From NCBI RefSeq assembly GCF_026210795.1, contig NC_089454.1:2604001-2668000 (forward strand): a stretch of 64,000 nt of DNA, given 5' to 3'. The position numbers and the translations under genes are program-made. Source of the stretch: Rhizophagus irregularis (taxonomy: Eukaryota > Glomeromycota > Glomeromycetes > Glomerales > Glomeraceae). The notes under the pieces were generated by a model that was not told the DNA's origin, searched no databases, and saw only the letters and a program-made list of their open reading frames with translations. Of this stretch, positions 42,012 through 61,894 are shown piece by piece; positions within the stretch are counted from its first letter, which is position 1, and each line of letters opens with the position of its first letter.

Positions 42012-42850
42012 TTTACTGAATGTGGTAATTTACAATTAAACAATCTGTGCACGCCATTTACATTGAATTTATCTATATTTGCAGATCATCATTAACTAAA
42101 AAAAATATCAATCAAATCATCGAAATATCAACTGATGATTGGAACGAATTTTGATTACAACGTTTTACTGAAAATCCAATTATTTAAATATATTTCGCAC
42201 CCCCTGATTGTGCATGAATAGAAACTGCCCACAAAACGAAGCTGCATATATTTCGGGAGTCTGCGTTACTAATAAATGAAAGCCACATGTAAAATATCAC
42301 GTGTGGTCTGTGTAGATCACCAGAGTGTGACATTTTTGTGTGATGCCCTGATTGTCACACATTAATCGTCCCCTGCCTTGATCGATGCCCCTGCAATATA
42401 TAATATACCCCAATAAAAACAGTACGCACTGATCACGTAATAAATTAAATCATTTTAGCGAATATGTTATCCCCGTAATAGATGATAGTGAAAAAGTTTA
42501 ACGATGCTGAAAGCCGGAGAAAAAATTTTGCTAAGATTTTGATCGTTACCAATGGTAACGGTTTTAATAAAATACATGGTACATTGTAAATGCACAGCCA
42601 CAAAAGCCCGAATCAATAAATAACATTTATCTAAAAATCTCATGTGTGCACGATCCGTTTAGAAGAGCGAAATCTTTATTAACTAATGCACTGTGCAACA
42701 TTACTTAAGACAAGTACTTTTTACAATTAGGAACTACAAGTATTCCGCTATTTAGTACAAATTATCTAAAATTCCGAAAGGATCTTGCTTTTGTTTTTTC
42801 ACGGAAGGAGGGGAATTTGTGGTACTATGTTGAGATCCCCCAATTCCCTC
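42012..42850. other. Intergenic left flank of the outer LTR retrotransposon
   Basis: No gene supported. GTGTGACA (about 42323) and TGTCACAC (about 42352) form an inverted pair. The 62-codon minus-strand frame at 42752-42940 crosses the inferred LTR boundary and is not supported. Confidence 0.4.
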
Positions 42851-44026
42851 TGTCATCAATTTACAGAGTTGCCACATCGAACGGGCATTCTCATGGTCGA
42901 ACGAACGAATAAACGAACGAACAATTAAACGAGCGAACAATTAATCAACAACATAATCAAACAACATAATCAACGAACAACATACAACAACATATAACAA
43001 CAACATTCTTGGTTCACAAAATAAATAGCGTTAGTAATATAAAACGTTGAACGATATAAAATAAAATTTAACTTCTCTAAATTTTCCCCAAATTATATCC
43101 ACTTTTACCTTTAATTTCAAACTTCGATAGCTCTCGCTACGAATTATTACTTTTCAAAACATATATTTAATTCATCTTAAAATTTTCATTTATTTAATTA
43201 AAATTAATTAAGCGAACATTAATTAAAGTTTAGGGCGAACCTATTACCTTCAATTAATATTAAACTTTACTAACAAATAATTAAATGAAACTTATATTTT
43301 TATTGAGTTCTGTGGATGAGAACTAAGGAATTACCTTGAATTCCGCTCTCTATATATACAATTTTTATGCTACTTTCTATTCTATCTATATACTATCTTT
43401 TATGTTCTTTTTACATATTATCTTTGAACTATCTTTCTAATATACTATCTATATTTTAAATACGCTATCTTTTAATATGCTATCTTTTAATATGCTATCT
43501 TTTTATATATATTCTTTTTAATATATATTATCTTTTACGTTCCATCTTTATACTATCTTTTTATATTATCTTTTACATTATTTTGTGTTCTTTAATCTTT
43601 CTGACATTATTTTATATGTTCTTTTAATTCGCTTTATGTGTTTTGCTTATAATCTATCTTTTGTGGCTTATAATTATTCTTTCTTATCGTTCTTATTGTT
43701 AAAGATTGCTAAGCCGCAATTGATCGACTCTAATTATCCTATTGGTTCTTTGTCAATTATTTGATGAATATTACGTCATGTAGATCATTACTCTTCCTAA
43801 ATGTTTATCAACATTGTAGATATCACTTAGTTTATATATCACTAAGAATTTGAGTTCATAAAAATTATGGGATTCCCATTACTCTTCCTAAATGTTTATC
43901 CTTTTCGGCTAATTATTTATCCATCTACGCCAATTCGCAATCAATTTGTTCATTCTTAGTATTTGGAAATTACATTTGGTGGTTGAATTTTATCATCTTT
44001 TCATGCTTGATATTCGGCCGTTTACA
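42851..44026 (-). repeat. 3' LTR of the outer retrotransposon
   Basis: The right boundary is set by a polypurine tract (minus strand GAAGAGGGGATAA) followed by TGTAAACGG. The left boundary at TGTCATCA is inferred: it begins like the inner LTR (TGTCACC) and gives 1,176 bp, almost the inner LTR's 1,174 bp. Both LTR types share a segment with AAGTTTAGGGCGAACCTATT. CGAACGAA and ACAACATA simple repeats lie at about 42895-43010. Confidence 0.7.
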
Positions 44027-44100: not shown

Positions 44101-45327
44101 TTACTCGAATCGAACTCGGGTCCTATCGAATACCTCTTTTCCTTTAATTACTATTTTTGGTGTAAATCTCCCTCGATCATAAAATTTCTTTAACCATTCT
44201 CCATTTTGCGGAGTCTTTAGTATTCTTCCATCCAATTCTTTGAGTTTATATGCCCCATTTCCAAATTCTTCGTGAATTAAATATGGTCCTTTCCATTTGT
44301 TCTGTAATTTTCCAGACCATTGTTTTTCTCTCCACGCTTCGTATAATAATACTTTTTTTCCTATTTCAAATTTAGGTTTCCTAATTCCTCTTTTGTCATG
44401 TTGTTGTTTTTGTTTTTCTTGAGCTTCTTCCACGTTCTCTTTCATTTTTCTTCTTATTACTGGTAGCTCCTCAATTAGTATTTTTACTCTATCAGCTAAT
44501 GTTATCTTGTTTTCATCTTTGTCTAATGGTAATTTCGCTCTCCTTCCGTACGTTGCATAAAAAGGTTTAATTCTTGTTGACGATTGCTTCTTTGTTCTGT
44601 ATGCAAATAATACGGATGGTATATGTTTATCCCAGTTTTCTTCCCCTAATTTGGCTAATCCTTCGCATAAAGTTTTATTGAATCTTTCGACCAAACCATT
44701 TGTTTGTGGCCTATATGGTGTACTTAATCTATGATTTATCCCACATCTTTCTACTAATTCTTCCATCATTTTATTGTTAAAGTGAGTCCCTCTATCGCTA
44801 ATTATTTTCTTTGGACATCCATGTCTACAAATTATGTCTCTCCAAATAAATTCTACCACTTCTTTTGCTGTAGCTTCTTTTAGTGGTGCGGCCTCGGGCC
44901 ATTTTGTAAAATAATCCATTGCTACTACAATATACTTATTTCCCTTTTCTGTCTCTTTTAATGGTCCAACTATATCTATTCCAATCATCTCGAATGGTTC
45001 ATTTATCTTTATTGGCATTAATTCGTTCTTTCCTCTTGGTTTTCCTCTCATTTGACAATTCCAACACGTTTTTACATATTCTTCTACATCTTCTTTCATA
45101 TTTTTCCACCAATAATTTTCTTTTATTCTATCTAATGTCGCTTCTACTCCAAAATGTCCTGATAATTCGTTATCATGCATCATGTACATCAATCCTTCGT
45201 ATTCATAATCCCTGATTACTCTAAATTTGTTTTGTCCTTTTACTCTACATAGAATTCCTTCTTTCAATTCATATTTATTCTCCTTTTCGATATTGTCAAT
45301 TATTTTCTTGTAATTATTTTCTTCCAT
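44101..45327 (-). CDS. Integrase of the outer LTR retrotransposon
   Basis: The ORF has 408 residues. An N-terminal zinc-binding HHCC region has H51, H58, C88 and C91. The catalytic core has D118 (GIDIVGPL), D178 (ISDRGTHFN) and E214 (NGLVERFNK), a DD35E triad. The C-terminal part holds WKGPY of the GPY/F module; no chromodomain is seen. It inserts the cDNA into host DNA in the nucleus. It is a separate ORF about 60 bp after the RT-RH-kinase ORF, in contrast to the single Pol of most Ty3/Gypsy elements, so its own translation start or a translational recoding step is needed. Confidence 0.92.
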   Translation of the reverse strand: MEENNYKKIIDNIEKENKYELKEGILCRVKGQNKFRVIRDYEYEGLMYMMHDNELSGHFGVEATLDRIKENYWWKNMKEDVEEYVKTCWNCQMRGKPRGKNELMPIKINEPFEMIGIDIVGPLKETEKGNKYIVVAMDYFTKWPEAAPLKEATAKEVVEFIWRDIICRHGCPKKIISDRGTHFNNKMMEELVERCGINHRLSTPYRPQTNGLVERFNKTLCEGLAKLGEENWDKHIPSVLFAYRTKKQSSTRIKPFYATYGRRAKLPLDKDENKITLADRVKILIEELPVIRRKMKENVEEAQEKQKQQHDKRGIRKPKFEIGKKVLLYEAWREKQWSGKLQNKWKGPYLIHEEFGNGAYKLKELDGRILKTPQNGEWLKKFYDRGRFTPKIVIKGKEVFDRTRVRFE

Positions 45328-45387
45328 AATACCTCTTTAATTGATTTCGCTTCTAAATTTGTTATTTTCGTTATGTGTTCTGTATTT

Positions 45388-47469
45388 TTAGTTCTGTGCT
45401 CTTCTCCATTTCTCCACCTCTTTAAATACTTTTCTCCAACTACTATTGTCATTTTTAACTTTTACTCGACTGTATCTTTTAGTATCTTTGTACACGCCCT
45501 GATTTTCTTCAAACATTCTAACCATGTCCAAATATTCATCCTTCTTTAATGTTGGATATGACGATTTTTCCGTTTTCTTTGTTTCTCTTCCAATGTAATT
45601 TTTCCAACATACATCACTATCCTTTTCTAAAAATATCACTATTGATTTGTCTATTGTTTCTTTCAGTCTGAATATTTCTTTTTCCATCTCATGATTTCCA
45701 TGTGGAGTAATTAATCCTCTGTCAAAACTTTTCGTCTTTTGATAATAATATTCACAATATGGTGATTTGTCTAAAATTATTATATCTGTATCTTCGTCAT
45801 ATTCTAGCATTCTTCTGTTTATTTGTTCCACTACTTCTTTTCTGAATTTCCATTCTGTCTCCATCTTTGATTCATAAAATTCATCTTTATCTTTTCTTCT
45901 TCTCTTATAAGTGTTGAATCTTACTTTTAATCCTTGCTTTTCCCATTCTTCAATTAAATTTTGTACTATACTTGTCTTTCCTAATCCGTCTACTCCATCG
46001 ATTATTACTATTTCTGGTTGATCCTCTACTATCTTTAATAACCTACTTAATGCGTCGGCGTTCGTATTTTCTTTTCCCGACCTATGTATTACTTCAAAAT
46101 TATATTGCTGTAATTCCATCACCCATCTTGCTCTTTTTCCTTTTGGTATCTTTGCATTCATTAATCCTTTTAATGCACTGTGATCTGTTATTACTTTAAA
46201 TTTTCTATCGATTAAATATTTATGAAAATGTTGAATTCCCCAAACTATTCCTAAACATTCCAATTCTGTTATCGGATAATTTTCTTCTGCTGGTAATAAA
46301 CTTCTACTTGCATATGCTATTACTACTTCTTTTCCTTTTTCATCTTTTTGACTTAATACTGCACCTAATCCTTTTCCTGATGCATCTGTTATTAATAAAA
46401 ATTCTTTCTTCCAATCTGGATGTCGCAATATTGGATATTGTATTAACTTTTCTTTCAATTTTTCAAACGCTTCTTGTTGTTCTCTTCCCCAAATGAAAGG
46501 TATTCCCTTCTTTCTCAAATCACTTATTGGTCTTGCTATCTTTGAAAAATTCTTCACAAATTTTCTGTAATATGAACAAAGTCCCAAAAATGATCTTACT
46601 TCTTTCACTGTTGTTGGTGCCTTCATTTCTTTTATCTTTTCTATCTTTTTATCGTCTGGCCTTAATCCATCATTTCCTACTATATGTCCTAAAAATTCTA
46701 TATTTCTTTCCAAAAATCTGCATTTCTTTAATTTTATTATTAAATTATTCTCCTGTAACTTCTTCAATACTTTTTCCACATGTTCCATATGGTCTTTTAA
46801 ATTTTCTGAATATATCATAATATCGTCAATATATACTACTACAAAATCGTTTATGTATTCTTCTAATATTTCATCCATTAATCTTTGAAATGTTGCTGGT
46901 GCATTAGTTAAACCGAATGGCATTACATTATACTCAAATAATCCCTTTGAACATACAAATGCTGTTTTTTCTTTGTCTTCTTCTTTCATTTCTACTTGAT
47001 TAAATCCTGCCGCTAAATCTATACTTGAAAACCATTTTGCTTTTCTGTATTTGTCTAACAATTCATCCATTCTTGGTAAAGGAAAACTATCCATTATAGT
47101 TATCTTGTTTAGCTTTCTGTAATCAATACAGAATCTATATTTTCCCGTTTTCTTTCCTGCTAACGTAACTGGTGAACTCCATGGACTTTTTGATTTCCTT
47201 ATCCTTCCTTGTTTTAACAATTTATCCACTTCTTCGCTTATAAATTTTGCCTTTTCATCTGTTTCTTTGTATCTTCTTTGCTTTATTGGTTCTACCCCCT
47301 CTTTTATTTTTATCTCATGTTGCGCCGCTTTCGTTCTTCCTTCTATCTCTTCGTCATATTCCAAAATATCTTGGTATTCTAATAGTAATTTTACCATATT
47401 TTCCCAAATTGGTTCTTCTACTTTCCCTATACTTAGTTTTTGCATAAATTTTCCACTTGGTTCGAGCAT
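45388..47469 (-). CDS. Reverse transcriptase-RNase H with C-terminal thymidylate-kinase-like domain
   Basis: The ORF has 693 residues. RT occupies about 60-265 with D151 and YIDD (D215, D216). RNase H occupies about 355-475 with D362, E404, D429 and D472. From 485 to the end is a nucleotide kinase domain: Walker A GVDGLGKTS (492-500), an Arg-rich stretch, ILDKSPYCEYYYQ (about 565-577) resembling the DR(Y/W) region of thymidylate kinases, and a charged C-terminal half. The fusion of RT-RH with a dNMP-kinase-like enzyme could supply dTDP/dTTP precursors during cDNA synthesis; that role is inference. Homology with the inner element continues upstream of the first ATG in this frame, but the inner element's ATG position reads ATA here. 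Confidence 0.9.
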   Translation of the reverse strand: MLEPSGKFMQKLSIGKVEEPIWENMVKLLLEYQDILEYDEEIEGRTKAAQHEIKIKEGVEPIKQRRYKETDEKAKFISEEVDKLLKQGRIRKSKSPWSSPVTLAGKKTGKYRFCIDYRKLNKITIMDSFPLPRMDELLDKYRKAKWFSSIDLAAGFNQVEMKEEDKEKTAFVCSKGLFEYNVMPFGLTNAPATFQRLMDEILEEYINDFVVVYIDDIMIYSENLKDHMEHVEKVLKKLQENNLIIKLKKCRFLERNIEFLGHIVGNDGLRPDDKKIEKIKEMKAPTTVKEVRSFLGLCSYYRKFVKNFSKIARPISDLRKKGIPFIWGREQQEAFEKLKEKLIQYPILRHPDWKKEFLLITDASGKGLGAVLSQKDEKGKEVVIAYASRSLLPAEENYPITELECLGIVWGIQHFHKYLIDRKFKVITDHSALKGLMNAKIPKGKRARWVMELQQYNFEVIHRSGKENTNADALSRLLKIVEDQPEIVIIDGVDGLGKTSIVQNLIEEWEKQGLKVRFNTYKRRRKDKDEFYESKMETEWKFRKEVVEQINRRMLEYDEDTDIIILDKSPYCEYYYQKTKSFDRGLITPHGNHEMEKEIFRLKETIDKSIVIFLEKDSDVCWKNYIGRETKKTEKSSYPTLKKDEYLDMVRMFEENQGVYKDTKRYSRVKVKNDNSSWRKVFKEVEKWRRAQN

Positions 47470-47504: not shown

Positions 47505-48008
47505 CTATTTAAAATTCTGGTGCATTTTGAATACCTCTCCTTCATCGTTGCTTTCATATTCTTCGTCATCCTCGCTCTCCTCACTTTCACATATTGCTTC
47601 TCTTTCATATCCTACTGGAATCGTTATTATTTCTCCTTGTTCTTCTATTCTTAAGGTATGATCTTCAAAATTTATTTTTGCATTATACAGCTTCCATATA
47701 TCATTTCCCAAAATTAGATCCTCTTCTTCTGAATCGATTACCTCAACTTCTTTTAGTATTTCCAATTCATCTTTGTATCTCAAAGTTATATTTGCCTTTC
47801 CTAACGCTGCTATCTTTTGCCCATTTGCTATTGTACATCTAAATTTACTTTTTCCAAATATAGGTATATTCAATCTCCTCCTTAATTTGTCTGTTATCAC
47901 ACTTACTGCTGCTCCAGTATCTATTATTACATTCACTAATTGATCTTCAACTTCTAATTCTGTTCTCATTGCTGTAGTTCTTTTCTCTTCATTTTTCATA
48001 GTTCCCAC
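47505..48008 (-). CDS. Aspartic protease of the outer element, in frame with Gag
   Basis: The retropepsin-like domain has DTGAAVSVIT near residue 32 and the second-half motif LILGNDIW. It cleaves Gag and Gag-Pro. It has no ATG close to its start and lies in the same frame as Gag, four codons after the Gag UGA; a UGA-CUA-CAC-UCG readthrough is the probable way it is made. The first plausible internal ATG is four codons into the frame. It ends at a TAG that sits at the same place as the inner element's TGA. Confidence 0.88.
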   Translation of the reverse strand: MGTMKNEEKRTTAMRTELEVEDQLVNVIIDTGAAVSVITDKLRRRLNIPIFGKSKFRCTIANGQKIAALGKANITLRYKDELEILKEVEVIDSEEEDLILGNDIWKLYNAKINFEDHTLRIEEQGEIITIPVGYEREAICESEESEDDEEYESNDEGEVFKMHQNFK

Positions 48009-48017
48009 CGAGTGTAG

Positions 48018-51000
48018 TCAATTTTTCTCATTTATGCTTCTTGGTCTATATGTTCCTTCTCTCAATTGTTTATGATACTTAGTATTCTCATTTATCATTT
48101 GTCCAATTGTTATATTCGCTCTACAATTTTTCACGTCTTCCACAATATCGTAAGGTGGTATTCCATCAGTTAATCTCGGTCCATATTCTCTGGGCTTTCC
48201 TGTCCCTGATGGCTTTGTTCTAACCCAATTTCCAAATTCATCTTGCCGCATTCCAGGGTAAAATGCTTTGCCTTCCTTTGTGAACATTGGTTTATAAAAT
48301 CTTCCATCTTTTGTCATGGGTCGCCGACCATAATTATAATCTTCTGGTCCTATTGGACTATCCCAATTTTGACTATCTTTGTATACATTATTTTGTTCTA
48401 TCCTTTCAGGCGTATATCTTGGTGTTGTTGTTCCACTTGGTATTTCTCTATCATCCATTCTATTTCCCGCTTCTCTTAATTCTTCTTGTAAATTTCCTTC
48501 TTCACCATTATTTTTATATCCCATTATTGGATTCGACCTTCTTGTTTGTCTTCTTGTTTTTACTGCGTTATCTTTTGCGTATAATTCATTATGGTAATTT
48601 AATTCCCTATCTTCATAATCATCGTAATAACCTTGTGTATAATACATTTCACCGTATTGTGGTTCCCCATATTCATATCCATCATAATCATATTCTTCTT
48701 GATCATCATATTCGTCCATCACATTTATTCTCGCATTCCTTCTTTTCTCTGGACACTCTCCTGAATAATGACCAACTCTACCACATGTATAGCATGTCGG
48801 TACCCTTTTTTGGAATGACTGATTTCTTTGAATTGGTTGACTTCTTTGCATTGGTTGGTTTCTTTGCATTGGCTGGTTTCTTTGTGGCAATCGCCTATAG
48901 CTCTGACTCGCTAAATTTCTTAATCTTTCATTCTCATCTTCTAACATCTTAATTTGTAACTTCGCAAAACTGTCTGCTAATTCATCTACACTTACCCCTT
49001 TATTATTCCTTACATTCCCTTGAACAATAGGTTCTTGTCTTCTTTGTTCATCATTAATTCCTTTTGGTTGTACTTTATCTGTTAATGCTTCTAAACCTCT
49101 TTCTACGTTTTTTGCTATCTGAAATGTTGCATTTAGATCTGCTGGATTTCCCATTACTACGTCTTTAGTAAAGTCTGGTTTTAATCCTCTAATAAAAATT
49201 CTCTTTTGCTGATTTGCTGCTACTGCTGCATCACCTCCCGCTCTCTTTAACATATATTTAAATCTCGTAAGGTATTGAGTTACATTCTCGTCTCCCTGTC
49301 TAATCTTTTCTAATTGTTCTAGCCATCTATCTTTAATTTCATCACTTGCATACTTTCCAATTATTCTTACTCTTAATCTTAAATTATGATCTCCATTAAC
49401 ATTCCAATCGACAATATTTACTCCTTCAGTCTTTAACCAATCTGCTGCTCCTCCCATTAATTTCGCTTTTGCTAATCTAAATCTCTGTGCGTCATCATTC
49501 CCTAAACCATTCGCTGTAAATGTCTCCTCAAATTTATCTGCCCATTCTTCTGGATCTTCTCCACTGGTACCATAAAATACTGGTATTTCCACAATAGCTC
49601 CCCTATTTGCGTTTAAATTTCCTATTGCATTAGTATTCGCTTGAACTTCTCCTTGTAATCCTGTCAATGTTACTGGTGGTAATGCTAAATTGTTCCAATC
49701 TGCCCCAATATCATGATTATACATAGTATTCATTAGTGCTCTTAGATCTGCTCTGAGTTCATCTCTTGATGCTGCCATTGTTATCTTTGGTTTTATTGGT
49801 GGTACTGGTATTATTGGTATTATAGGTGTTTTCTTCAATTCTTTGTTTTCCTTTTTGCTTTTTGATTTTTTACTTGAGCCAATTTCGGGTCCTTTTATAT
49901 CCTCTTCCACTCCATCTTCATCATCTATTGGATTTTCTTTTTCAATATCTTTTTCACATTCTATGCAAGTTTCTTTTCCAATTTTGAATTCTTTCTTTAA
50001 TCTTTCAATTTCACATCTTTCACATTCTTTTGTGTTTTCAACTCTCCATTGTAATATTTGTTCATCTAATTCTTCATCTTCAAGATTCCATATTGTTAAA
50101 TATTTCTTCATAAATTCATATGTTGTTATTATCTTTGCGGTTACTCCAAATTTTCTTATTCTTTCAATTTCCGTTATTTCTACATCATATCCCATTCTTT
50201 TCAAATCCATTCTAATTATTTCTTCGAATATCTTTGTTGTTTCTGTTTCTTCAACATTATTAGATTCATTAGATTCCTCATCCGACATTTCTTCATTTTT
50301 ACTAATCGGTAAATTTTCTTCTTCCCCATCATCTGTTTCTGTTATAGTATAGCTTCTTGGTGTGTCATCACTATCTGTTTCATCTATATTTAATTGTTCA
50401 AACCCCCTAATCTTATCATAAACTTTTTCAGTTATTTCTTTGCTAATTCCCCAACCATGTTCACGAACTTTTATGTGCATTGTGTGCAACATTAATCTAA
50501 TCTTTTGTTTGAACGCTTCTATCTTTTCTGTTGACTCGTCTTCTTTTAATTCAGCTTCTTCATATAATATATTTTTGTACCTTCTAATAGTGCTATCTTT
50601 ACATTCTACAAAATCTGTTATAGCTTCTTTATACCATTCATAAAATTCCCCAAATCTTATATTCACGTCCCAATCTTCCAAAATATAACCATATCTTATT
50701 AATTCTTCATTCCCTATCAATCTGTCCATTGTTTCATCTTCTTTATCATTTTCTATACAATCTCTCACGATCACTATTATTATTATCTTTAATCCTTTTT
50801 CTCTTAATATTGGTTGTTTCAAGTATCTTATCGATTCGACCATTACATCTAATGCATCTCTAGTTCTTCCTTTTGTATAATTATTTCTTTCTTCACTATC
50901 TATACTCAATAAATTTAATAACGCTCTTATAGTTTCTGCATTATAATCTTTTATCGTATATTCAAATTTTTGCAATATTTTCCAAAATTTCTTGAAAACT

Positions 51001-51143
51001 TCTGGTGTATCTCTTATTGGATAACATATTTCACATGTTATATTTTCTCCTCTTAATTCGTCTATATCTACATTTCCGATATTTTCGTCATGTCTTAATT
51101 TGTGGTTCTCGTAATCAACCCTCCAAGTTTCATACCATTCCAT
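48018..51143 (-). CDS. Gag of the outer LTR retrotransposon
   Basis: The ORF has 1,041 residues, starting ACGATGGAATGGTA (same start context as the inner Gag). An unusual N-terminal extension of about 500 residues has a Cys pair near the start (CEICYP) and one helical module ending in CERC..CIEC. A capsid-like retrotransposon Gag domain lies at about 540-720 (WADKFEETF, YLTRFKYML, FIRGLKPDF), then a Gln/Arg/Pro-repeated linker and a single CCHC knuckle CYTCGRVGHYSGEC near 785. An acidic/Tyr-rich tail follows. It forms the virus-like particle and binds RNA. It ends in UGA followed by CUA. Confidence 0.9.
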   Translation of the reverse strand: MEWYETWRVDYENHKLRHDENIGNVDIDELRGENITCEICYPIRDTPEVFKKFWKILQKFEYTIKDYNAETIRALLNLLSIDSEERNNYTKGRTRDALDVMVESIRYLKQPILREKGLKIIIIVIVRDCIENDKEDETMDRLIGNEELIRYGYILEDWDVNIRFGEFYEWYKEAITDFVECKDSTIRRYKNILYEEAELKEDESTEKIEAFKQKIRLMLHTMHIKVREHGWGISKEITEKVYDKIRGFEQLNIDETDSDDTPRSYTITETDDGEEENLPISKNEEMSDEESNESNNVEETETTKIFEEIIRMDLKRMGYDVEITEIERIRKFGVTAKIITTYEFMKKYLTIWNLEDEELDEQILQWRVENTKECERCEIERLKKEFKIGKETCIECEKDIEKENPIDDEDGVEEDIKGPEIGSSKKSKSKKENKELKKTPIIPIIPVPPIKPKITMAASRDELRADLRALMNTMYNHDIGADWNNLALPPVTLTGLQGEVQANTNAIGNLNANRGAIVEIPVFYGTSGEDPEEWADKFEETFTANGLGNDDAQRFRLAKAKLMGGAADWLKTEGVNIVDWNVNGDHNLRLRVRIIGKYASDEIKDRWLEQLEKIRQGDENVTQYLTRFKYMLKRAGGDAAVAANQQKRIFIRGLKPDFTKDVVMGNPADLNATFQIAKNVERGLEALTDKVQPKGINDEQRRQEPIVQGNVRNNKGVSVDELADSFAKLQIKMLEDENERLRNLASQSYRRLPQRNQPMQRNQPMQRSQPIQRNQSFQKRVPTCYTCGRVGHYSGECPEKRRNARINVMDEYDDQEEYDYDGYEYGEPQYGEMYYTQGYYDDYEDRELNYHNELYAKDNAVKTRRQTRRSNPIMGYKNNGEEGNLQEELREAGNRMDDREIPSGTTTPRYTPERIEQNNVYKDSQNWDSPIGPEDYNYGRRPMTKDGRFYKPMFTKEGKAFYPGMRQDEFGNWVRTKPSGTGKPREYGPRLTDGIPPYDIVEDVKNCRANITIGQMINENTKYHKQLREGTYRPRSINEKN

Positions 51144-51515: not shown

Positions 51516-52689
51516 TGTCACCCCCGTCTGCCACCCGGCGGTAAACAAAGTTCCCTGCTTCTGTTATATGTGCTCCACGAAACATTAACATTCTTGCTTG
51601 GTTTAGTTTTATTACTACTTAACTTTCAAATTGCGATAGCTCTCGCCACAATATTTCATCCATTATCTTCTTTCAAAATACGATAGTTCTCTTTACAAAA
51701 GTTTATATTTTATTCATTTCATAATTCTTGTTATGACATTAAATTCACCATGAATTTGTCCAATTAAAATTAATTAAGCGAACATTACAGTAAAGTTTAG
51801 GGCGAACCTATTACCTTTAAAATAACATTACGCTTTACTAACAATTAATTAAACAAAATTACTTTTTCATCATAAGAAAATAGTAACAAAAACAATCGAA
51901 ACAATTAATTTTCATATCAAAGGGTATTTTATTTATTCTTCATAAAATTCACAATTAACTAATTTACTTAAAGTTTTACATCGTATCTGACGACTGTGGA
52001 ATTCACCTCCCATTCCGCTCCTATTTAAACCAACTTTCTTATTCTTTCTTTTCTTACTTCTTATTTCTTTCTAATATTTTATGTTATGTGTTCCCTTTTA
52101 TGCGCTATCTTGTATGCTATTTATATATTATCTTTTCTAATATGTTATACTATTTTAATACGCTATCTTTTCTTCAAAATAATCTTTCAAATATTATGTC
52201 GTAAAGATATAATCCATCTTTTGTGGCTGTGCTATCTTTTCTTTAAAATAAAATAATCTTTCAAATATTATATCGTAAAGATCCATCTTTTGTGGCTGTG
52301 CTATCTTTTCTACTGCGTCTCGTCAGCTATTCTTCTACTGCGGCTGCAGTTCATCAATATTTTACATGTTCCTATTTTTTTTGTTCCTTTAATTCGCTAT
52401 CCTTCCTTTTTATATGATTTATCATTTGTGGCTTATGATTACTCCTCCTAATTGTTCCTATTGTTGAACTTGATAAACTGGTTGCTAAGCCACATCGATC
52501 AACTTCCTACTGGATCTATTGGTTCTCCGTTAATCATTTAATAAACATTACATCATGTAGATCATTCCTTCTCCTAAGAGTTTATCCTTTCCGGTTAATT
52601 TTATCCAATCATGTGACTTTCTATCGTCTGATCTTTTATTCCATATTATTCCTCCATATTATGCGATTACTCCAGTATCTATGGCTACA
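51516..52689 (-). repeat. 3' LTR of the inner retrotransposon
   Basis: It starts TGTCACCCCC and ends GGCTACA in plus orientation, 1,174 bp. The left edge is fixed by the identical copy at 62999 and the right edge by the polypurine tract. By eye the only difference from the other copy is T at 52122 versus C at 63605. It contains tandem AAAGAT..TTTTGTGGCTGTGCTATC modules near 52200-52310. Confidence 0.9.
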
Positions 52690-52719: not shown

Positions 52720-53907
52720 TCAAATTCGAACTATTACTTCAAAATTTGTCCTATCAATATATTCCTTCAGTAATTCACCATTTACTGGCGTTTTCAATAT
52801 CTTCCCTTCCATAGTTTTAATTCTGTATGATCCTTTAGAAATTATCTCATGTACATAATAAGGTCCTTTCCATTTTTCTTCTAACTTTCCAGACCATTGT
52901 TTCTCTTTTGCTGCATCATAATATAGTACTTTATCTCCGATTTGTAATTTCTGCTTTATTCTATTCTTTTTATCATGGTACGATTTTTGTTTTTCCTGAG
53001 ATTTCCTGACATTTTCTTTAGCTTGATTCCTAATGTTTGGTAATCCTTCGATCAACCCATTAACTCTCTCTGCCATGGTAATTTCCTTATCTTCTAAATC
53101 TAATAATGTCTTCATTTGTCTCCCATATATTAAATATCCTGGTTCCATTTTCGTTGAATCATTCCTTTTAGTTCGATACGCGAACAATACTCCTGGTACT
53201 TTCAAATCCCAATCTTCGATATTACTTAGCTTTGCTAATGATTCACATAATGTCTTGTTAAATCTTTCAATTAACCCATTAGTTTTTGGATGATAAGGCG
53301 TCGAAAAGTTATGTTTTATCTGAAATTCCTCCATTAATGATTTCACTAATTTATTATTGAAATGACTTCCTCTATCACTCAATATCTTCTTTGGACATCC
53401 ATGCCTACATATTATATCTTCATAAATAAATCTTGCAATTTCCTTAGCATCTGCTGTTTCCAATGCCTTTGCTTCAGGCCATTTTGTAAAATAGTCCATC
53501 GCTGTAACTATATATCTATTATTTCTCTTTGTTACTGGTAATGGTCCCACTACATCAATCCCAATTTGATAAAATGGTTCTATAACTTTGATTACATTCA
53601 GTTCATGTTTTCCTATTGGTTTTCCTCTTCTCTGACAATTATTACATGATTTGACATAAGCTTCTACATCTTTTCTCATCCCTTTCCAATAATACCCATC
53701 CTTGATCCTATTATACGTTGCATCTATTCCAAAGTGTCCTGATAATTCATGATCATGAGCTATGTACATTAACCCTTCAAATTCGTATTTTCTTATCACT
53801 CTTAGTCTTTTCTCATCTTTTATTTTGTAAATTAATCCTCCTATAATTTCATATCCCCGTTCGTCATTGATATTCCTCGCTATCCTATTATATTCTTCCT
53901 CTTCCAT
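52720..53907 (-). CDS. Integrase of the inner LTR retrotransposon
   Basis: The ORF has 395 residues and is collinear with the outer integrase: zinc ligands H51, H58, C88 and C91; DD35E triad D118, D178 and E214 (GLIERFNK); C-terminal WKGPY. No chromodomain is seen. It is separated by about 140 bp from the 113-codon ORF upstream. That gap holds short tandem AAGTGTTGTAAAA-like repeats (plus strand about 53930-54020). Confidence 0.92.
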   Translation of the reverse strand: MEEEEYNRIARNINDERGYEIIGGLIYKIKDEKRLRVIRKYEFEGLMYIAHDHELSGHFGIDATYNRIKDGYYWKGMRKDVEAYVKSCNNCQRRGKPIGKHELNVIKVIEPFYQIGIDVVGPLPVTKRNNRYIVTAMDYFTKWPEAKALETADAKEIARFIYEDIICRHGCPKKILSDRGSHFNNKLVKSLMEEFQIKHNFSTPYHPKTNGLIERFNKTLCESLAKLSNIEDWDLKVPGVLFAYRTKRNDSTKMEPGYLIYGRQMKTLLDLEDKEITMAERVNGLIEGLPNIRNQAKENVRKSQEKQKSYHDKKNRIKQKLQIGDKVLYYDAAKEKQWSGKLEEKWKGPYYVHEIISKGSYRIKTMEGKILKTPVNGELLKEYIDRTNFEVIVRI

Positions 53908-54404: not shown

Positions 54405-56738
54405 TTAAGCTCTTTGGTGTTTTTCTATCTCCTTATATACTTTTCTCCAACTACTATCGTCATTCCTAACTTCAATTTGACTGTATCTTTTGGTATCTTT
54501 GTATACATCCTGGTTTTCTTTAAACATTTTAACCATGTCCAAATATTCATTTTTCTTTAATGTTGGGTATGACGATTTCTCCATTTTCTTCGTTTCTCTT
54601 CCAATATAATTTTCCCAACATACATCGCCATCTTTTTCCAAAAATATCACTATTGATTCATCTATTGTTCCTTTTAATCTGAATATTTCTTTTTCCATCT
54701 CATGGTTCCCATGTGGAGTAATTAATCCTCTGTTGAAACTTTTCGTCTTCTGATAATAATATTCGCAATATGGCGATTTGTCCAGAATTATTATATCCGT
54801 ATTTTCATCATATTCTAACATTCTTCTGTTTATTTGTTCTACTACTTCCTTTCTAAATTTCCATTCTGTTTCTAATTTTGATTCGTGAAATTCACCTTTG
54901 TCTTTTCTTCTCCTTTTGAATGTATTAAATCTTACTTTTAATCCTTGCTTTTCCCACTCTTTAATCAAATTTTGTACTATACTTGTTTTTCCTAATCCAT
55001 CCACTCCGTCGATTATAATAACTTGTGGCTTATTTTCTCTTCCCAATTTCTTTAATAATTCTTTTTCTGTCCTTTCCTCCAAATTCAAAAGTATGGCTTC
55101 TTTATCGGTAAAATATTTTTCATCATCCCATCTCCCTTTAAATCTTTTAGCATTATACCATTTATTCCTAAATTTGATATATCTCAATTTCCCCTTATTA
55201 CTTTCTATTTTTGTTATTTCTTGATTCTCGTTCCTTTCTGTTTCTTTTTCTTTAAATCTCAGTCTTGATAATCCATCTGCATTTTTAATTTTCTTTCCAC
55301 TTCTATGTACTATTTTAAAATCAAATTGTTGTAATTTCATTACCCATCTTGCTCTCCTTCCCGTTTGTTCCTTTCCATCTGTTAATCCTTTTAATGCTGC
55401 GTGATCTGTTATCACTATAAATTTCCTTCCTACTAAATATTTCTGAAAATGTTGTATTCCCCAAAATACCGCTAAGCATTCCAATTCTGTTGGTGGATAA
55501 TTCTTCTCTGCTCCAACTGTACTCCTACTTGCGTGAGCTATTACAACCTCTTTATTTTCTTCATTCATTTGAGCTAACACTGCTCCTAATCCTATCTTAG
55601 ATCCATCAGTTATCAATATAAATTCTCTGCTGAAATCCGGATATACTAAAATTGGATTTTCTGTCAATTTTGTCCTTAATACGTCAAATGCTTCTTGTTG
55701 TTCTTCCTTCCATTCAAACTTTTCATTCTTTCTTGTTAAGTTAAGCAAAGGTTTTGCTATCTTCGAAAAACCTTTTATAAATCTCCTATAATATGAACAT
55801 AATCCTAAAAATGATCTTACTTCTGTGACAGTTTTCGGCCTCCTTATATTTTCTATTTTCTCAACTTTCTCTTTATCCGGTCGCAATCCATCTCTTCCTA
55901 CTATATGCCCTAAGAAATTTATATTTCTCAATCCAAACTGACATTTCTTCAATTTCACAATCATATTATTCTCTCTCAATTTACTCAATACTTTATCTAC
56001 ATGTTCTATATGTTCCTCAAAATCTTCTGAATAAATCATTATATCATCTAAATACACTGTAACAAATTCCCCTATATATTCTTTTAATATTTTATCCATT
56101 AATCTCTGAAATGTTCCTGGTGCATTCTTCAATCCAAATGGCATAACATTGTATTCATATAATCCTTGTGAACAAATGAATGCTGTTTTCTCTTTATCTT
56201 CTTCTGCCATTTCTACTTGATGATATCCTGCTGCTAAGTCCAAACTTGTGAACCAACTTCCCTTTCTAAATTTTTCTAACAATTCGTCTATCCGGGGTAA
56301 AGGATATTCATCTGACTTTGTCACATTATTTAGCTTTCTATAATCTATACAAAATCTATAATTTCCAGTTTTCTTTCCTGCTAACGTTACTGGAGATGCC
56401 CAATTACTCCATGATTCTCTTATCTTCCCCATCTTTAACAATTGTTCAATTTCTTTCTTTATAAACTTTCCTTTTTCATCAGTTTCTTTATATCTCTTTT
56501 GTGCTATTGGTCCTTGATTTTCTTCAATTATTATTTCATGTTTAACTGTATTTATCCTTCCCAGTTTCTCTTCGTCATATTCGAATATATCTTCATATTC
56601 CCTTATCAATTTTTTAAATGCTATTCTCTCCTCATCGCTCATTTCTCCCAGATGTGTTTTCTTTTCAAATTTTTCTTCTTTGCTCTCATTTAGCATCTTT
56701 ACCGTCTCTCCTTCATTCAGAAAGCCAAGACCATTCAT
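54405..56738 (-). CDS. Reverse transcriptase-RNase H with thymidylate-kinase-like domain, inner element
   Basis: The ORF has 777 residues. RT carries SLDLAAGYHQVEM and YLDDIM; RNase H carries LITDGSKIGLGAVLAQ, ELECLAVFWG, VITDHAALKGL and NADGLSR. After RNase H comes an extra 90-residue segment absent from the outer copy (RYIKFRNKWYNAKRFKGRW). From about 571 to the end is the kinase domain with GVDGLGKTS (about 578-586) and LDKSPYCEYYYQ. Its ATG overlaps the protease stop as ATGA (56735-56738), suggesting coupled re-initiation. The kinase part is about 86 percent identical to the outer copy by hand count. Confidence 0.92.
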   Translation of the reverse strand: MNGLGFLNEGETVKMLNESKEEKFEKKTHLGEMSDEERIAFKKLIREYEDIFEYDEEKLGRINTVKHEIIIEENQGPIAQKRYKETDEKGKFIKKEIEQLLKMGKIRESWSNWASPVTLAGKKTGNYRFCIDYRKLNNVTKSDEYPLPRIDELLEKFRKGSWFTSLDLAAGYHQVEMAEEDKEKTAFICSQGLYEYNVMPFGLKNAPGTFQRLMDKILKEYIGEFVTVYLDDIMIYSEDFEEHIEHVDKVLSKLRENNMIVKLKKCQFGLRNINFLGHIVGRDGLRPDKEKVEKIENIRRPKTVTEVRSFLGLCSYYRRFIKGFSKIAKPLLNLTRKNEKFEWKEEQQEAFDVLRTKLTENPILVYPDFSREFILITDGSKIGLGAVLAQMNEENKEVVIAHASRSTVGAEKNYPPTELECLAVFWGIQHFQKYLVGRKFIVITDHAALKGLTDGKEQTGRRARWVMKLQQFDFKIVHRSGKKIKNADGLSRLRFKEKETERNENQEITKIESNKGKLRYIKFRNKWYNAKRFKGRWDDEKYFTDKEAILLNLEERTEKELLKKLGRENKPQVIIIDGVDGLGKTSIVQNLIKEWEKQGLKVRFNTFKRRRKDKGEFHESKLETEWKFRKEVVEQINRRMLEYDENTDIIILDKSPYCEYYYQKTKSFNRGLITPHGNHEMEKEIFRLKGTIDESIVIFLEKDGDVCWENYIGRETKKMEKSSYPTLKKNEYLDMVKMFKENQDVYKDTKRYSQIEVRNDDSSWRKVYKEIEKHQRA

Positions 56739-57325
56739 TTTTCCTCATCCCTCTTTTCTCTATCAGTTTTTACAATCGATAACAACTCTTCTTTTTCCAT
56801 CTCCTCATATTCATCTTCACTCTCTGACTCTTCACTAGAATTGCCATCTATATCATCTATATTCTTTGGATCTCCATTAAATTCACCCCTATTCCCTGAC
56901 TCCTCAAATTCAACATTTTTCTTTCCTCTAAAATCAATTGGTATTTCATATATTCCATTATCCCATTCTATTGTTAACAGACCTTCTTTCATATTTATTA
57001 TCCCATATCTTAATAAATCAGTTCCTAATATTAAATCTTTTCTTCTCGAGTCGATTACTTCGAACTCCAAAGGTATTTCTAAATTTTCGTCAATTTCTAT
57101 TCTAATTTCCACTCTTCCTAATGAAGCTATGTTATTTCCATCTGCTATTGTTAATACGACATTACTTTCCTTCGTTATTGGTATATTTAATTCTTTTCTC
57201 AGTTCATTCGTTATTACTGAAGGTCCTGCTCCTGTATCAACTAATGCTCTAATCATTTTTCCTTCAATTATTATATTACATCTTGTTGCTTGTGATTTTT
57301 CTTCTTTCTGATTAATATTCTTCAA
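56735..57325 (-). CDS. Aspartic protease of the inner element, in frame with Gag
   Basis: The retropepsin core has DTGAGPSVIT and LILGTDLL. No ATG stands at its start; the frame is continuous with Gag across a single UGA (57341-57343) followed by CUA CAC UCG. It therefore probably exists as a Gag-Pro readthrough product. An acidic C-terminal tail leads into the ATGA overlap with the RT ORF. Confidence 0.9.
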   Translation of the reverse strand: MKNINQKEEKSQATRCNIIIEGKMIRALVDTGAGPSVITNELRKELNIPITKESNVVLTIADGNNIASLGRVEIRIEIDENLEIPLEFEVIDSRRKDLILGTDLLRYGIINMKEGLLTIEWDNGIYEIPIDFRGKKNVEFEESGNRGEFNGDPKNIDDIDGNSSEESESEDEYEEMEKEELLSIVKTDREKRDEEK

Positions 57326-57340: not shown

Positions 57341-60300
57341 TCAATATCTCAAACCATTTAATAATTTCTTCCTTACTTCTGGTCTTTCATTCATCATTTG
57401 TCCCCAATTAATTGGTACGCTTGAATTTACAAATTGCTCAAATGGATCAAAATCTCCAACATTTGGTATATTTCGATTTAACTTCACTTTCTCGTTTGTA
57501 CATTCTCTAGCAAAATGTCCTTGTTGTCCACAATTGTGACACCTATTATTATTCTTTCTAGTTTCATATCCTTTCTGTAATTGTTCTTTTGTAAAACCCC
57601 TCTTATTATTCTCCTGTGCTTTTTGCTGTTGTCCTTGCCATTGTACATTTCTTCTTCTATCTCTTTCATCGTTCATAACCTTGTCTTTATTTCTTTCACT
57701 CTTTCTAGGTGGTACTGGGAACATATCATATCTCTCCTCATCTTCATAGTTATTCACTTCGTAACCATCGAATCCATTATTATAGTTATCATATCCACCA
57801 CCCTCATTATATCCATCATATTCATCATTATATTCCATATTATACACATTATATCCTTCACCATAATATTCTTCATCAAGGTAATTAACTTGATTATTTT
57901 GGCTATATGACCCTTTATTATTTCCTCCATATGATCTTCTTTGACCTTCCCTACAAACTCTAGAAGTATGTCCTTTTCTTCCACATGTATAGCAAGTCAT
58001 TCTATCCCAGTTCATATTATTTCTTTGGACATTATTATTTCCGATCGGTCTCCTATCATTCCCATTCCTTTGCATTACATATGCTTCATTTCTCTGCATT
58101 ACATGTGCTTCCAACCTTTTTATTCCATTAATTAACTCATCCCATTCATCACTTTTAACTTCTTTTTTTTGTAATTCTTTCGCAATTGGATTCATTCCTT
58201 TATACTTATTTATCTCTTCTTTCAAAATTTCTTCCATGTTTTTCTCTTGTCCTACTCGTTTCATATCTAATCCCGTTGTTTTCATTAACAACTCATCCTT
58301 CGCTTCCTCTTCTCTTTTTGCTTCGTTAACTGCATCATTCAGATTCGTCAGATTACTTCTCCTAACATGATAACCTAGCATGGCATCTAACCCTTGAATA
58401 AAATAATTCACTTGATATAAATCATCTAACGCATGACCTCTAGTTGCAACTCTTAATATTGACCTAAATCTTCTAGTATATTCTTCAACACTTTCATTTG
58501 TTCCCTGTTTAATTCTTGTTAATTCTAACATTTTTCTTCTTTGAACATCATTCCTAGTAAATCTGTCGATTAATCTTCTTTTCAAATTTCTGTCCTCATT
58601 ATGATCACACCAATTCACTAAATTAGCTGCTACCTTTTCTTTTTCCTCATTATACCATTGTAATGCAATTCCTCTTAAACAAGTTATAGCTATATTCGCC
58701 TTATTTTGTCTACATACACCTCCTCCAACATTTCCTTCTGGTCGTCCACTTACTGTAAATGCTATCTCAAATTGTCTAATCCAATCATTAATATCTTCAT
58801 CCTCTTTTCCACTAAAAGTTGGCATACCTACTATTCCCCCCATTCCTGCAGTCTGAATCCTATCCGCCAAAGTCTGTCCTGCCCCTAACGCATTATCTAA
58901 TGCATTTGGTGCCAATCCCATAGCATTCTCCATTATTCTTCTTATTTGTGCTTCATTTGCCATATTTACTATATTCTCTTGAAATAATCCTTGTAAATTG
59001 TAATCAGATAATTCACTTTCGTTGTCAGAATTTTTAATATTTAATGAACTATTTGTATCTGAGTTTTGACTTAAGTCGCTACCCCCTCTATTTATAACAT
59101 TTTCAATTTCATCTTCAAACTCATCTTCATTAAAATTTTCAATATTTCCATCCCATATTTCATCTGGACTTAATATTTCTCCAGTCTTTTCTGAATCATC
59201 TGTATTTTCTTCTTTTGATTCTTCATTATCACTCTTTTCACCACTTTCTTCACTATCTATCACTCCTGCTTGTTCTTTCAACAACTTATCTAACTTTTTC
59301 TTTAATTCTCTTTCTGACTCATTTTTATTTTCTTGAAAGATTTCAATAAATTCTTTATCCAAAATTTCTCCATCTGTATATCCCATACTAGTTAATCTTA
59401 ACAATTCCTCTTCAATTATCATTATTCCAATATCCTCAAAAATCTTTTGCAATCTTTTTACCCGATCATCAATTTCATCAATATCTTCTTCCTCACAATC
59501 TTTGCATATAGTTCCTTCTAATCTAAACATATCATTCATCCATCTTATTTCGCATCTTTCGCACCAAGTTGTATTCTCATTTAACCACTTATGAATCTCT
59601 TTTCTTAACTCTCTATCTTCTAATTCTATTATTCCCATATACCTTTCTATGAATTCTTCTGTCACCATTATTCGATTATTAACTCCAAAATTCTTTATTC
59701 TTTGAATTTCCGATACATCCATTTCGTATCCTAATTTTTCTAAGTTGTTTTTTAGTTCTATTAATTCATCTTGTTCATCTTCCCGTATTTCCCGATTACA
59801 TTCTTCACATCTGCCATTTTCTTTTGATATTATATACTCTAATTTCTGCTTATTGCATCTATTACATATTATCGTACTCAAATCCATCCATTCCTTTATG
59901 TCTTCAGACTTATCAAATCTCCCTTCCTGAAAAATATAGTATCTTATAAAATTACTTGTTGACAGTATTCCCGTTTCTATCTTTTCTTTTATTCCAAATT
60001 TCATTATTTCTCTGACGAGCTTTTCCTTTGGGTTTACTATTAGTTGTTTTAATCCTATTCTTATTTCACTTAACTTCCACGTTTTATCTTCTACTATTAT
60101 TTCTATTTCTTCTTCAGAATCATGTATTTCATTATCTTCTCCTTGCTCTATCTCTATAAGCTTGAATTTTTGTGTTCTTTCCATCGCTTCTTTTAAATCT
60201 GTTACAATCCATTCTATTACTCCATCATCTATTCTCAATATAATAGGATCTCTTGCGTCTATATCTTCACTATCTTTAAATGTCATGCTATCTGTCAGTT

Positions 60301-61246
60301 TTCTTACAGTATCTTCTTGCAAATTCTCTCCCTCAGATAACATCTTCTCGAACCATTCTGGTGAATCATTTTCATGATATGTATGTATTTGTTTACCTTC
60401 ATATTTGTCATTCCACCAGTACCTGAATCTTTCAAATCTAAGATATAAACTCATGTTAAAATTCTTTTTCATTTCATAACTTTCTAAGCTATCTTCACTT
60501 TCTGAATCTTCTGGTTCTTTTGTAAAGCCCCTAGTATCTATAAATATTCTTATTATCTTTTGTACCATATTCCTGTGATATTCGTGAACATTTTCTATGT
60601 CTATATTCCCATATTCCATATTGGACATTAATTCTTTTACTTTCTCCTCATTCGTAGCTATTCCCTCCTCTTCATAAAGTAATTCCCTGAATGTCTTTAT
60701 TGCTCCCAACTTTACTCGTAATGGCTCAACTTCTTTCGATGTGATTTTGTACCATTGCCAAAATTTTTCAAACCTTCTTTCAACATCCCAATCTTCCAAA
60801 ATATATTTGTGTTCTATTAATTCAGGATTTCCGATTAATCTATCAAATACTTCATTCTCTAAATCTCCTTCAATACAATCTCTTACAATTACTAATATAA
60901 TCGTTCGTAATCCTTTTTCTTTCATTTTTGGTTGTATTCTATATCTTATTGATTCCGTTATTCTATCCATTATGTCTCTACATCTTCCTTTATGTATTGT
61001 ATCTTCTCTTTCTGAATTATTCATACTTAACAAATCCAATACTCCTTTAATTGTTACATCGTTATATATTATTATTGTATCTTCGAACTTAAATAATGCA
61101 TCCCAAAATTTCTTGAATACCATTGGTTCATTTCCCATCGGATGACATAATTCACAATTTAAACATTCATCTAATTCTCCTGTTCTCAATTCATGTTCCT
61201 CTTTATGTGCTCTATATTCACTTTCCCATTGATGGTACCATTCCAT
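57341..61246 (-). CDS. Gag of the inner LTR retrotransposon
   Basis: About 1,301 residues from the ATG at 61246 (context ACGATGGAATGGTA; an upstream TTG extends the frame by four codons but is unlikely). The N-terminal extension is about 750 residues: a CLNCELC pair near 35, then tandem modules with CNRC..CEEC (about 460-480) and CERC..CKDC (about 560-590). The capsid-like domain (PTFSGKEDEDINDWIRQFEI, YTRRFRSIL, YFIQGLDAM) follows. Two CCHC knuckles are present, CYTCGRKGHTSRVC (about 1085) and CHNCGQQGHFAREC (about 1235), where the outer Gag has one. A Tyr/Asn/Gly/Asp-rich region lies between them. It packages RNA and builds the particle. Confidence 0.9.
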   Translation of the reverse strand: MEWYHQWESEYRAHKEEHELRTGELDECLNCELCHPMGNEPMVFKKFWDALFKFEDTIIIYNDVTIKGVLDLLSMNNSEREDTIHKGRCRDIMDRITESIRYRIQPKMKEKGLRTIILVIVRDCIEGDLENEVFDRLIGNPELIEHKYILEDWDVERRFEKFWQWYKITSKEVEPLRVKLGAIKTFRELLYEEEGIATNEEKVKELMSNMEYGNIDIENVHEYHRNMVQKIIRIFIDTRGFTKEPEDSESEDSLESYEMKKNFNMSLYLRFERFRYWWNDKYEGKQIHTYHENDSPEWFEKMLSEGENLQEDTVRKLTDSMTFKDSEDIDARDPIILRIDDGVIEWIVTDLKEAMERTQKFKLIEIEQGEDNEIHDSEEEIEIIVEDKTWKLSEIRIGLKQLIVNPKEKLVREIMKFGIKEKIETGILSTSNFIRYYIFQEGRFDKSEDIKEWMDLSTIICNRCNKQKLEYIISKENGRCEECNREIREDEQDELIELKNNLEKLGYEMDVSEIQRIKNFGVNNRIMVTEEFIERYMGIIELEDRELRKEIHKWLNENTTWCERCEIRWMNDMFRLEGTICKDCEEEDIDEIDDRVKRLQKIFEDIGIMIIEEELLRLTSMGYTDGEILDKEFIEIFQENKNESERELKKKLDKLLKEQAGVIDSEESGEKSDNEESKEENTDDSEKTGEILSPDEIWDGNIENFNEDEFEDEIENVINRGGSDLSQNSDTNSSLNIKNSDNESELSDYNLQGLFQENIVNMANEAQIRRIMENAMGLAPNALDNALGAGQTLADRIQTAGMGGIVGMPTFSGKEDEDINDWIRQFEIAFTVSGRPEGNVGGGVCRQNKANIAITCLRGIALQWYNEEKEKVAANLVNWCDHNEDRNLKRRLIDRFTRNDVQRRKMLELTRIKQGTNESVEEYTRRFRSILRVATRGHALDDLYQVNYFIQGLDAMLGYHVRRSNLTNLNDAVNEAKREEEAKDELLMKTTGLDMKRVGQEKNMEEILKEEINKYKGMNPIAKELQKKEVKSDEWDELINGIKRLEAHVMQRNEAYVMQRNGNDRRPIGNNNVQRNNMNWDRMTCYTCGRKGHTSRVCREGQRRSYGGNNKGSYSQNNQVNYLDEEYYGEGYNVYNMEYNDEYDGYNEGGGYDNYNNGFDGYEVNNYEDEERYDMFPVPPRKSERNKDKVMNDERDRRRNVQWQGQQQKAQENNKRGFTKEQLQKGYETRKNNNRCHNCGQQGHFARECTNEKVKLNRNIPNVGDFDPFEQFVNSSVPINWGQMMNERPEVRKKLLNGLRY

Positions 61247-61894
61247 CGTATACTTCAATTAAATTATTAAAAATATTCATCCAGAATTCAAATTGGAATT
61301 TCGCTTTCTTATATATCATTTTTATCGCTTCTATTCTGATCTTCTAACCATTCTTTACTATATCATCCTTTCCTATTATCTATATTAAATGTATAATCTT
61401 TCTTTCATTATGAATATTCATTTAACAACTTATTATTTTTTTTTTTTTTCTAAATCTTTTACTTATTCATAATATTCTTATATTAATCTTTCAATCTTTA
61501 AATCCTCTTTTTTTTTTGATTCTCACAAGTTTCTTCTGCTATTCTTATCTTTCATAATTTCATGTATATATTTTACTGCGCCATTAATTCAAAAATTATT
61601 CTAAGTCCACAATCTCCTCAGACTGCGGAGGTTTTTATTGCGCATTCTAAAAATTCCAAAAATTTTCTAAGTTTTTACTGCGCCTCAAAATTTTCTTTTA
61701 TCATCAAAATTTGTAATTTTCGCATTTCACGAACTTCAAAATTCTCATAACTTCTAAAGTTTGTGAATTTTTAGTTCTTTTTCATTATATATGTAATCTT
61801 TACATCTATATATTCAATATTACGCAAAATATCTTCTTTGTTTAATCTTGTACTAATTCTTATTATCACCATTATGTCGACACACAACATATTA

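Follow-up and report, generated by a model that had tools for sequence, protein, structure and literature searches.

The dUTPase of non-primate lentiviruses is situated between RNase H and integrase, and most studies found it critical only in non-dividing cells (PMC4531489). Fungal Gypsy elements carry a dUTPase at varied positions (PMC2864245), and bdelloid long terminal repeat (LTR) elements also encode one (PMC5408684). Here we describe a kinase-like domain, hereafter KIN, in the Pol region of two nested, young Ty3/Gypsy elements (the outer and the inner element) on the minus strand of a 64-kb window of the Rhizophagus irregularis genome, 'the window' being the whole stretch of DNA analysed. 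Like lentiviral and fungal Gypsy dUTPases, KIN would add to Pol an accessory enzyme acting on the way to dTTP, but the reaction we propose for it differs, and the dUTPase fold is unrelated to KIN's kinase-like class.

Gag, protease (PR), reverse transcriptase (RT), RNase H (RH), integrase (IN), LTRs, a 4-bp target duplication and a motif resembling a primer binding site are those of Ty3/Gypsy LTR retrotransposons. The two elements differ from that group in carrying KIN between RH and IN and in having Pol divided into several open reading frames (ORFs). The initial annotation of this DNA had stated that no LTR retrotransposon is known to carry a nucleotide kinase in this position, and we likewise found no description of a retroelement-borne nucleotide kinase in searches of the open-access PMC literature, which does not prove its absence from print. 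In a paper on R. irregularis transposable elements (PMC8647823), the word 'thymidylate' is absent from the main text and the kinase passages among those listed concern signalling kinases. With confidence slightly above even, we read KIN as a kinase-like domain of the thymidylate kinase (TMPK)/deoxynucleoside kinase (dNK) superfamily, acquired at the RH/IN junction by a Ty3/Gypsy lineage of Glomeraceae and kept since, likely as a dTMP/dNMP kinase serving reverse transcription.

KIN occupies the slot between RNase H and integrase

In the outer element, the ORF at 45388-47508 (minus strand) comprises 706 amino acids (aa) from stop to stop, or 693 aa from the ATG at 47469, and runs free of stops from RT through RH into KIN. 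Pfam recognizes RVT_1 (5.9e-45) and RT_RNaseH (3.2e-37) in it. KIN, a domain of about 205 aa, corresponds to residues 485-693 of the product (46017-45388) and contains the motifs GVDGLGKTS and LDKSPYCEYYYQ. The inner element repeats the same layout in its ORF at 54405-56738 (minus strand). The uninterrupted fusion of an RT-RNase H ORF to a P-loop kinase-like domain of about 205 residues, claimed in the initial annotation, is therefore confirmed and comes in two copies.

Two layouts were found. In the first, KIN ends the RT-RH ORF and IN lies in a separate ORF, as in the outer and inner elements and at loci L032, L033 and L034. In the second, seen at locus L031, a 493-aa RT-RH ORF is followed by a 600-aa ORF that joins KIN to Pfam integrase domains; this order also occurs in the protein relatives P0033, P0035 and P0037. 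The slot between RH and IN is the feature common to both layouts.

A search of the window's own genome, a 146.7-Mb R. irregularis assembly of 32 contigs in which the window is C26:2604001-2668000, gave 151 KIN matches (150 listed, some of them pieces of one copy). Their identity to the outer KIN is mostly about 93-100%, 83-87%, 58-66% or 53-58%, with few at 70-82%. Searching the same genome with the outer RT-RH yielded 344 RT candidates, of which 110 were scored, all at least 67% identical to the outer RT; in 109 of these 110, KIN follows on the same strand no more than 3 kb downstream, and in the single exception the nearest KIN is 15.3 kb away. Conversely, one of the 110 scored RTs lies upstream of 113 of the 150 listed KIN matches.

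Two protein searches returned 37 and 98 KIN relatives; in the first, matches at 99-100% bear the name R. irregularis. The organisms named are R. irregularis, R. clarus, R. diaphanus and Glomus cerebriforme, all from Glomeraceae, the family to which Rhizophagus belongs; the remainder come from metagenomes or other sources, and no bacterial, phage or non-Glomeraceae fungal name appears in either set. The source names are polyprotein, protease, integrase, unrelated proteins or 'hypothetical'. The exceptions are metagenome entries, called thymidylate kinase or in one case uridine kinase, and the UniRef entries P0062, P0087 and P0101, all three called thymidylate-kinase-like domain. KIN is in the same protein as RT-RH in 24 of the best 120 of 6232 RT-RH relatives, a figure that does not measure the absence of KIN because many RT-RH proteins end just after RH and KIN may be in the next ORF. 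KIN is thus present in several element families and in other Glomeraceae, and not confined to the window copies, an outcome that the initial annotation had named as speaking against its reading. Other tails of about 250-385 aa follow the RNase H motif in the related RT-RH proteins P0216, P0218, P0220, P0225, P0227, P0228, P0230, P0231 and P0238; these are perhaps further insertions at the RNase H junction.

KIN is under purifying selection. Ratios of nonsynonymous to synonymous substitution rates (dN/dS), calculated by the Nei-Gojobori method on five Pol sequences that represent four families, with L032 and L034 in one of them, and on L031 versus each, range between families from 0.09 to 0.26 for KIN and from 0.06 to 0.30 for RT-RH. 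Within the outer family, 30 copies give a ratio of nonsynonymous to synonymous variants of 0.10 in KIN, 0.24 in RT-RH and 0.29 in IN, and the KIN columns hold no stop in any of the 30. Because these copies are the best KIN protein matches, the KIN ratio and the absence of stops look more favourable to KIN than they would in an unselected set; the between-family dN/dS values are free of this selection. A chance ORF extension or a one-off chimera is ruled out by the 151 genome matches, the between-family dN/dS and the linkage to 109 of 110 RTs.

KIN and RT-RH do not share the same relationships. The outer and inner elements are 86% identical in KIN and 64% in RT-RH at the protein level, whereas the inner element and L033 are 88% identical in RT-RH and 64% in KIN. 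In the RT-RH tree, the inner element groups with P0017, P0018, L033, P0027, P0028 and P0031 (100/100), whereas in the KIN tree the inner element joins the outer element, P0012 and P0019, together with P0017 and P0018 (98/99); both trees comprise 14 sequences, P0016 and P0022 being left out because no domain start could be located in them. The simplest reading of these discordant identities and trees is an inter-lineage recombination that replaced KIN and retained RT-RH and the linker between RH and KIN. KIN thus behaves as an exchangeable cassette, the inner element combining the RT-RH of one lineage with the KIN of another.

What kind of kinase-like domain is KIN?

We built an alignment (A2) of 41 KIN members, consisting of five own-genome copies and 36 of the 98 protein hits, hand-picked for near-full length. 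PHROG 761 (thymidylate kinase) matches all 41, at best with 4.3e-17, and covers residues 16-217 in the outer copy. It also matches E. coli Tmk (7e-38) and a host dNK-like gene, L037 (2e-17), so this profile marks the superfamily. The Pfam profile Thymidylate_kin (PF02223) matches 35 of 41 members at E<=1e-3, the outer copy not being among them, while the Pfam dNK profile (PF01712) matches 3 of 41 at the same threshold. In profile-profile comparisons, the probability is 97.8 for pooled TMPKs (10 sequences), 97.2 for six phage TMPKs and 95.2 for three bacterial and one phage TMPK; it is 24.7 for two solved dNKs and 95.7 for dNKs together with the host gene.

Residues D23 and K27 (in the P-loop), R52, R54, D96, K97, R157 and E158 are invariant in all 41 members. 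D23 occupies the position of the deoxyribose-contacting acid of TMPKs; its counterpart is I in the host dNK-like gene and in solved dNKs. A glycine follows D23 in 38 of 41 members, as it follows the acidic residue of the P-loop EGLEGAGK of E. coli, whereas the sequence in the presumed TMPK exon of the host is EGCDKAGKST. In DKSPYCEYYYQ, the D-x9-Q spacing equals that of DRHDLSTQAYQ in E. coli Tmk; all 41 members retain the D and 40 of them the final Q. R157-E158 is located in the presumed LID. DKS and F-N-T-F-K-R-R-R stand in place of the dNK motifs, ERS and a strand-2 glutamate with tryptophan.

Compared with thymidylate kinases (PF02223 and the phage types of PHROG 761), KIN thus has in common the acidic P-loop residue, D-K/R-x with an equally spaced Q, a basic residue in the presumed LID and a profile-profile probability of 97.2-97.8 over the first 130-143 residues. 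It differs from them in having DKS and not DR, in residing in a retrotransposon Pol, in the scores of the window copies, which fall below the Pfam cut-off, and in an identity of about 25% in its longest phage matches. With deoxynucleoside kinases (PF01712) it shares the superfamily and an alignment of 181 columns to the host gene, but it has neither the ERS motif nor the strand-2 glutamate, and two solved dNKs align to it at the P-loop only. We therefore favour a very divergent member of the TMPK/dNK superfamily, probably on the TMPK side, with membership in either family unproven.

Is this divergence compatible with a thymidylate kinase? Several results weigh against it. At 19.2 and 22.2 bits, the window copies stay short of the PF02223 cut-off of 27, which is reached by five of 10 relatives (P0047 28.9, P0068 32.5, P0082 27.1, P0111 27.4, P0033 30.2) picked for a pre-existing PF02223 label. 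Of these 10, seven pass the KTI12 (PF08433) cut-off too, which is 22 bits (outer copy 18.3), with matches that span only the first 80 or so of 271 profile positions; in A2, the profiles KTI12, AAA_14 and NPHP3_N find 21 of the 41 members each. The arginine of the TMPK DRX motif is replaced by lysine in all 41. A PDB sequence search ranks P-loop fragments of FtsY first and finds TMPK chains only at E of about 0.1-1, mostly over the P-loop, without full-length likeness to solved TMPKs. By hhalign, the best single sequence is the host dNK-like gene (probability 97.1, 181 columns), followed by seven phage kinases (86.9-94.0 over 79-127 columns), and both FtsY (90.9 over 38 columns) and Cmk (80.4 over 26) stand above E. 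coli Tmk (67.9 over 90), while the remaining P-loop proteins of E. coli give 13-51 over 17-35 columns. By hmmsearch, the scores are 44.5 bits for the host gene, 22.5 for one phage kinase, 21.0 for FtsY, 10.2-15.7 for the remaining six phage kinases, 8.4 for E. coli Tmk and at most 3.5 for the rest, so FtsY ranks above all but one of the phage kinases. The lead of these seven is itself partly built in, because they were chosen as KIN matches. The reference profile panels are small and unequal (2-10 sequences), and the TMPK profile alignments cover about KIN residues 14-143, short of the presumed LID. FtsY was dropped as a family for KIN, its match extending over only 38 columns.

The initial annotation had called the domain thymidylate-kinase-like. 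This stands at the level of the TMPK/dNK superfamily and not for TMPK proper, given the sub-threshold window copies, the DKS motif, the rank of FtsY in the PDB search and the host dNK-like gene as best single-sequence match. In the profile comparison that it proposed, most A2 members match Thymidylate_kin and few match dNK. It had also named an unrelated P-loop family as the outcome that would speak against it; no search put KIN's whole length in such a family.

The prominence of the host dNK-like gene raises the alternative that KIN is a deoxynucleoside kinase, or derived from one, perhaps by capture of such a host gene, and salvages deoxynucleosides and not dTMP. The host match stands well clear of the best score in 200 shuffles of that gene (5.9 bits), but it carries a high composition bias (14.1 bits), and the profile of the two solved dNKs (6ybh and 1zm7, near-duplicates) aligns over 15 columns only. 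The scarcity of Pfam dNK matches, the acidic P-loop residue in place of I, DKS in place of ERS and the lack of E-x3-W after strand 2 also argue against a dNK, and we judge this alternative unlikely.

KIN may instead be a non-metabolic module that keeps a P-loop fold and binds NTPs or nucleic acids, in assembly, RT release or integration, or belong to another P-loop branch. The loss of the DRX arginine in all 41 members and an invariant basic stretch (K51 R52 x R54) would suit such a role, as would the confinement of most solved-TMPK matches to the P-loop region, beyond which the sequences are too divergent, and the similarly strong matches of FtsY and KTI12 over the N-terminal part. However, the P-loop, the basic residues after strand 2, DKx and the putative LID (R157 E158) are conserved jointly, as catalysis predicts; lysine for arginine is a conservative change, and the PHROG 761 match runs along residues 16-217. 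We judge a non-metabolic module unlikely as well. That KIN is a functionless passenger, a chance fusion spread by an active element, is disfavoured and in our view very improbable: the outer family is young and of high copy number, so a neutral passenger could hitchhike, but dN/dS is far below 1 between deeply diverged families, and KIN has two layouts, undergoes cassette exchange and is present in R. clarus, R. diaphanus and Glomus cerebriforme.

Possible donors and element architecture

An origin of KIN from the host TMPK finds no support in a comparison of exon fragments: with the KIN profile, the highest score for any exon frame of the presumed TMPK of the fungus is 13.0 bits (E 6e-4), versus 44.5 for the dNK-like gene. 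The dNK-like gene itself (L037 1480-2490, minus strand; C28:1224005-1224616 in the own genome) has a long N-terminal extension and matches Pfam dNK at 1.2e-31 over residues 131-328 of 336. As regards a recent donor among bacteria or phages, none of 81 stretches from viral_contigs and none of 46 from genome_contigs was confirmed as a relative. Against phages, tblastn with the outer KIN returned nothing at E<=0.01 and with P0101 two chance-level records. With the KIN of L033 and E values up to 10 it returned 182 records, eight of which cover at least 80% of the query at about 25-26% identity; among those listed, many are thymidylate kinases and others PhoH proteins or, in one case, a helicase, with short pieces up to 48% identical. 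In a profile search of 295 genomes of a Mycoplasma genome's phylum, 45 matched at E<=1e-4, the matches among those listed lying within profile positions 8-111 of 254, around the P-loop.

Five of seven annotated phage loci with KIN-like thymidylate kinase genes (L040, L041, L044, L045, L047) have a dUTPase or a MazG-like pyrophosphohydrolase gene next to them, and two of seven do not. The same type of phage gene is labelled polynucleotide kinase in some records.

Each of the two window elements has ORFs for gag, protease, RT-RH-KIN and integrase, the protease being recognized by motif or position only (Table 1). The initial annotation's assignment of the outer element to Ty3/Gypsy is borne out by the Pol order PR-RT-RH-IN (PR by motif only), a gag with zinc knuckle, LTR pairs ending in TG...CA and short target-site duplications. 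The outer LTRs are identical over 1196 of 1196 bases, with the 4-bp target duplication ATGT, and the inner LTRs have two mismatches in 1174 bp, with the 4-bp duplication ACAT. A motif that is the same in both elements, TGGTGCATGCTCC, lies downstream of the 5' LTR and is read as a putative primer binding site.

Table 1. Features of the outer and inner Ty3/Gypsy elements (window positions)
Feature	Position	Strand	Remarks
Outer 3' LTR	42831..44026	-	ATGT at 42827-42830
Outer integrase ORF	44101..45336	-	ATG at 45327; Pfam Integrase_H2C2, rve; in the frame of KIN, two stops between
Outer KIN domain	45388..46017	-	C-terminal ~209 aa of RT-RH ORF, stop counted
Outer reverse transcriptase and RNase H	46018..47469	-	from ATG; Pfam RVT_1, RT_RNaseH
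Outer aspartic protease ORF	47505..48017	-	motif IIDTGAAVSVI read in the sequence, without Pfam scan
Outer gag ORF	48018..51143	-	Retrotrans_gag, zinc knuckle; long N-terminal extension
Outer 5' LTR	beyond window, window-equivalent 65307-66502	-	partner of 3' LTR
Inner 3' LTR	51516..52689	-	ACAT at 51512-51515
Inner integrase ORF	52720..53907	-	Pfam
Inner KIN domain	54405..55022	-	last 205 aa of 777-aa product
Inner RNase H-KIN linker	55023..55262	-	NKWYNAKRFKGRWDD...EKELLKKLGR; common to L032, L033; absent from outer element
Inner reverse transcriptase and RNase H	55263..56738	-	Pfam
Inner protease ORF	56735..57325	-	inferred from position, unscanned
Inner gag ORF	57341..61258	-	Retrotrans_gag, two zinc knuckles
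Inner 5' LTR	62999-64172, window end at 64000	-	partner of 3' LTR

All these ORFs are on the minus strand. Gag and protease of the outer element are in the same frame, divided by a single stop (48018-48020); its KIN and IN likewise have a common frame, divided by two stops (45337-45390), the KIN stop and the IN start being 60 nt apart. In the inner element, a 113-aa ORF lies between KIN and IN (54048-54389), and the protease stop overlaps the RT start in an ATGA (56735-56738), a possible termination-reinitiation site. Both gag ORFs (48018-51143 and 57341-61258) exceed 1000 aa and have a similar long N-terminal extension (CEICYP/CELCHP ... FKKFW). Elsewhere in the window, 31427-35077 (minus strand) encodes a 1216-aa protein with repeats of about 36 aa, Sel1-like by eye, whose shifted copies have 78-88% DNA identity.

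A possible role in reverse transcription

As a kinase of the TMPK/dNK superfamily, KIN would be synthesized as part of Pol, and its fusion to RT-RH would bring it wherever RT is packaged; the element protease could then free it. There it would phosphorylate dTMP, and perhaps other dNMPs, to yield dTDP in the case of dTMP, and a host nucleoside-diphosphate kinase would finish dTTP near the site of reverse transcription. Supply of dTTP may be limiting in these fungi, owing to low dNTP pools in non-replicating nuclei and to AT-rich DNA (the GC content of the window is 23-35%).

In its full form, this proposal has a retroelement lineage equipped with a dNMP (dTMP) kinase that is built into Pol as an interchangeable domain and lets the lineage control its dTTP supply in the particle, in convergence with the lentiviral dUTPase in the same Pol slot. 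We advance it tentatively, giving it a chance just short of even. If KIN is active, a retroelement can furnish dTTP precursors as well as remove dUTP, and the RNase H/integrase junction would be a recurrent docking site for enzymes of dNTP metabolism, with such modules swapped between element lineages. An active KIN would also make it possible to test which factors limit retrotransposition in the coenocytic, AT-rich arbuscular mycorrhizal fungi.

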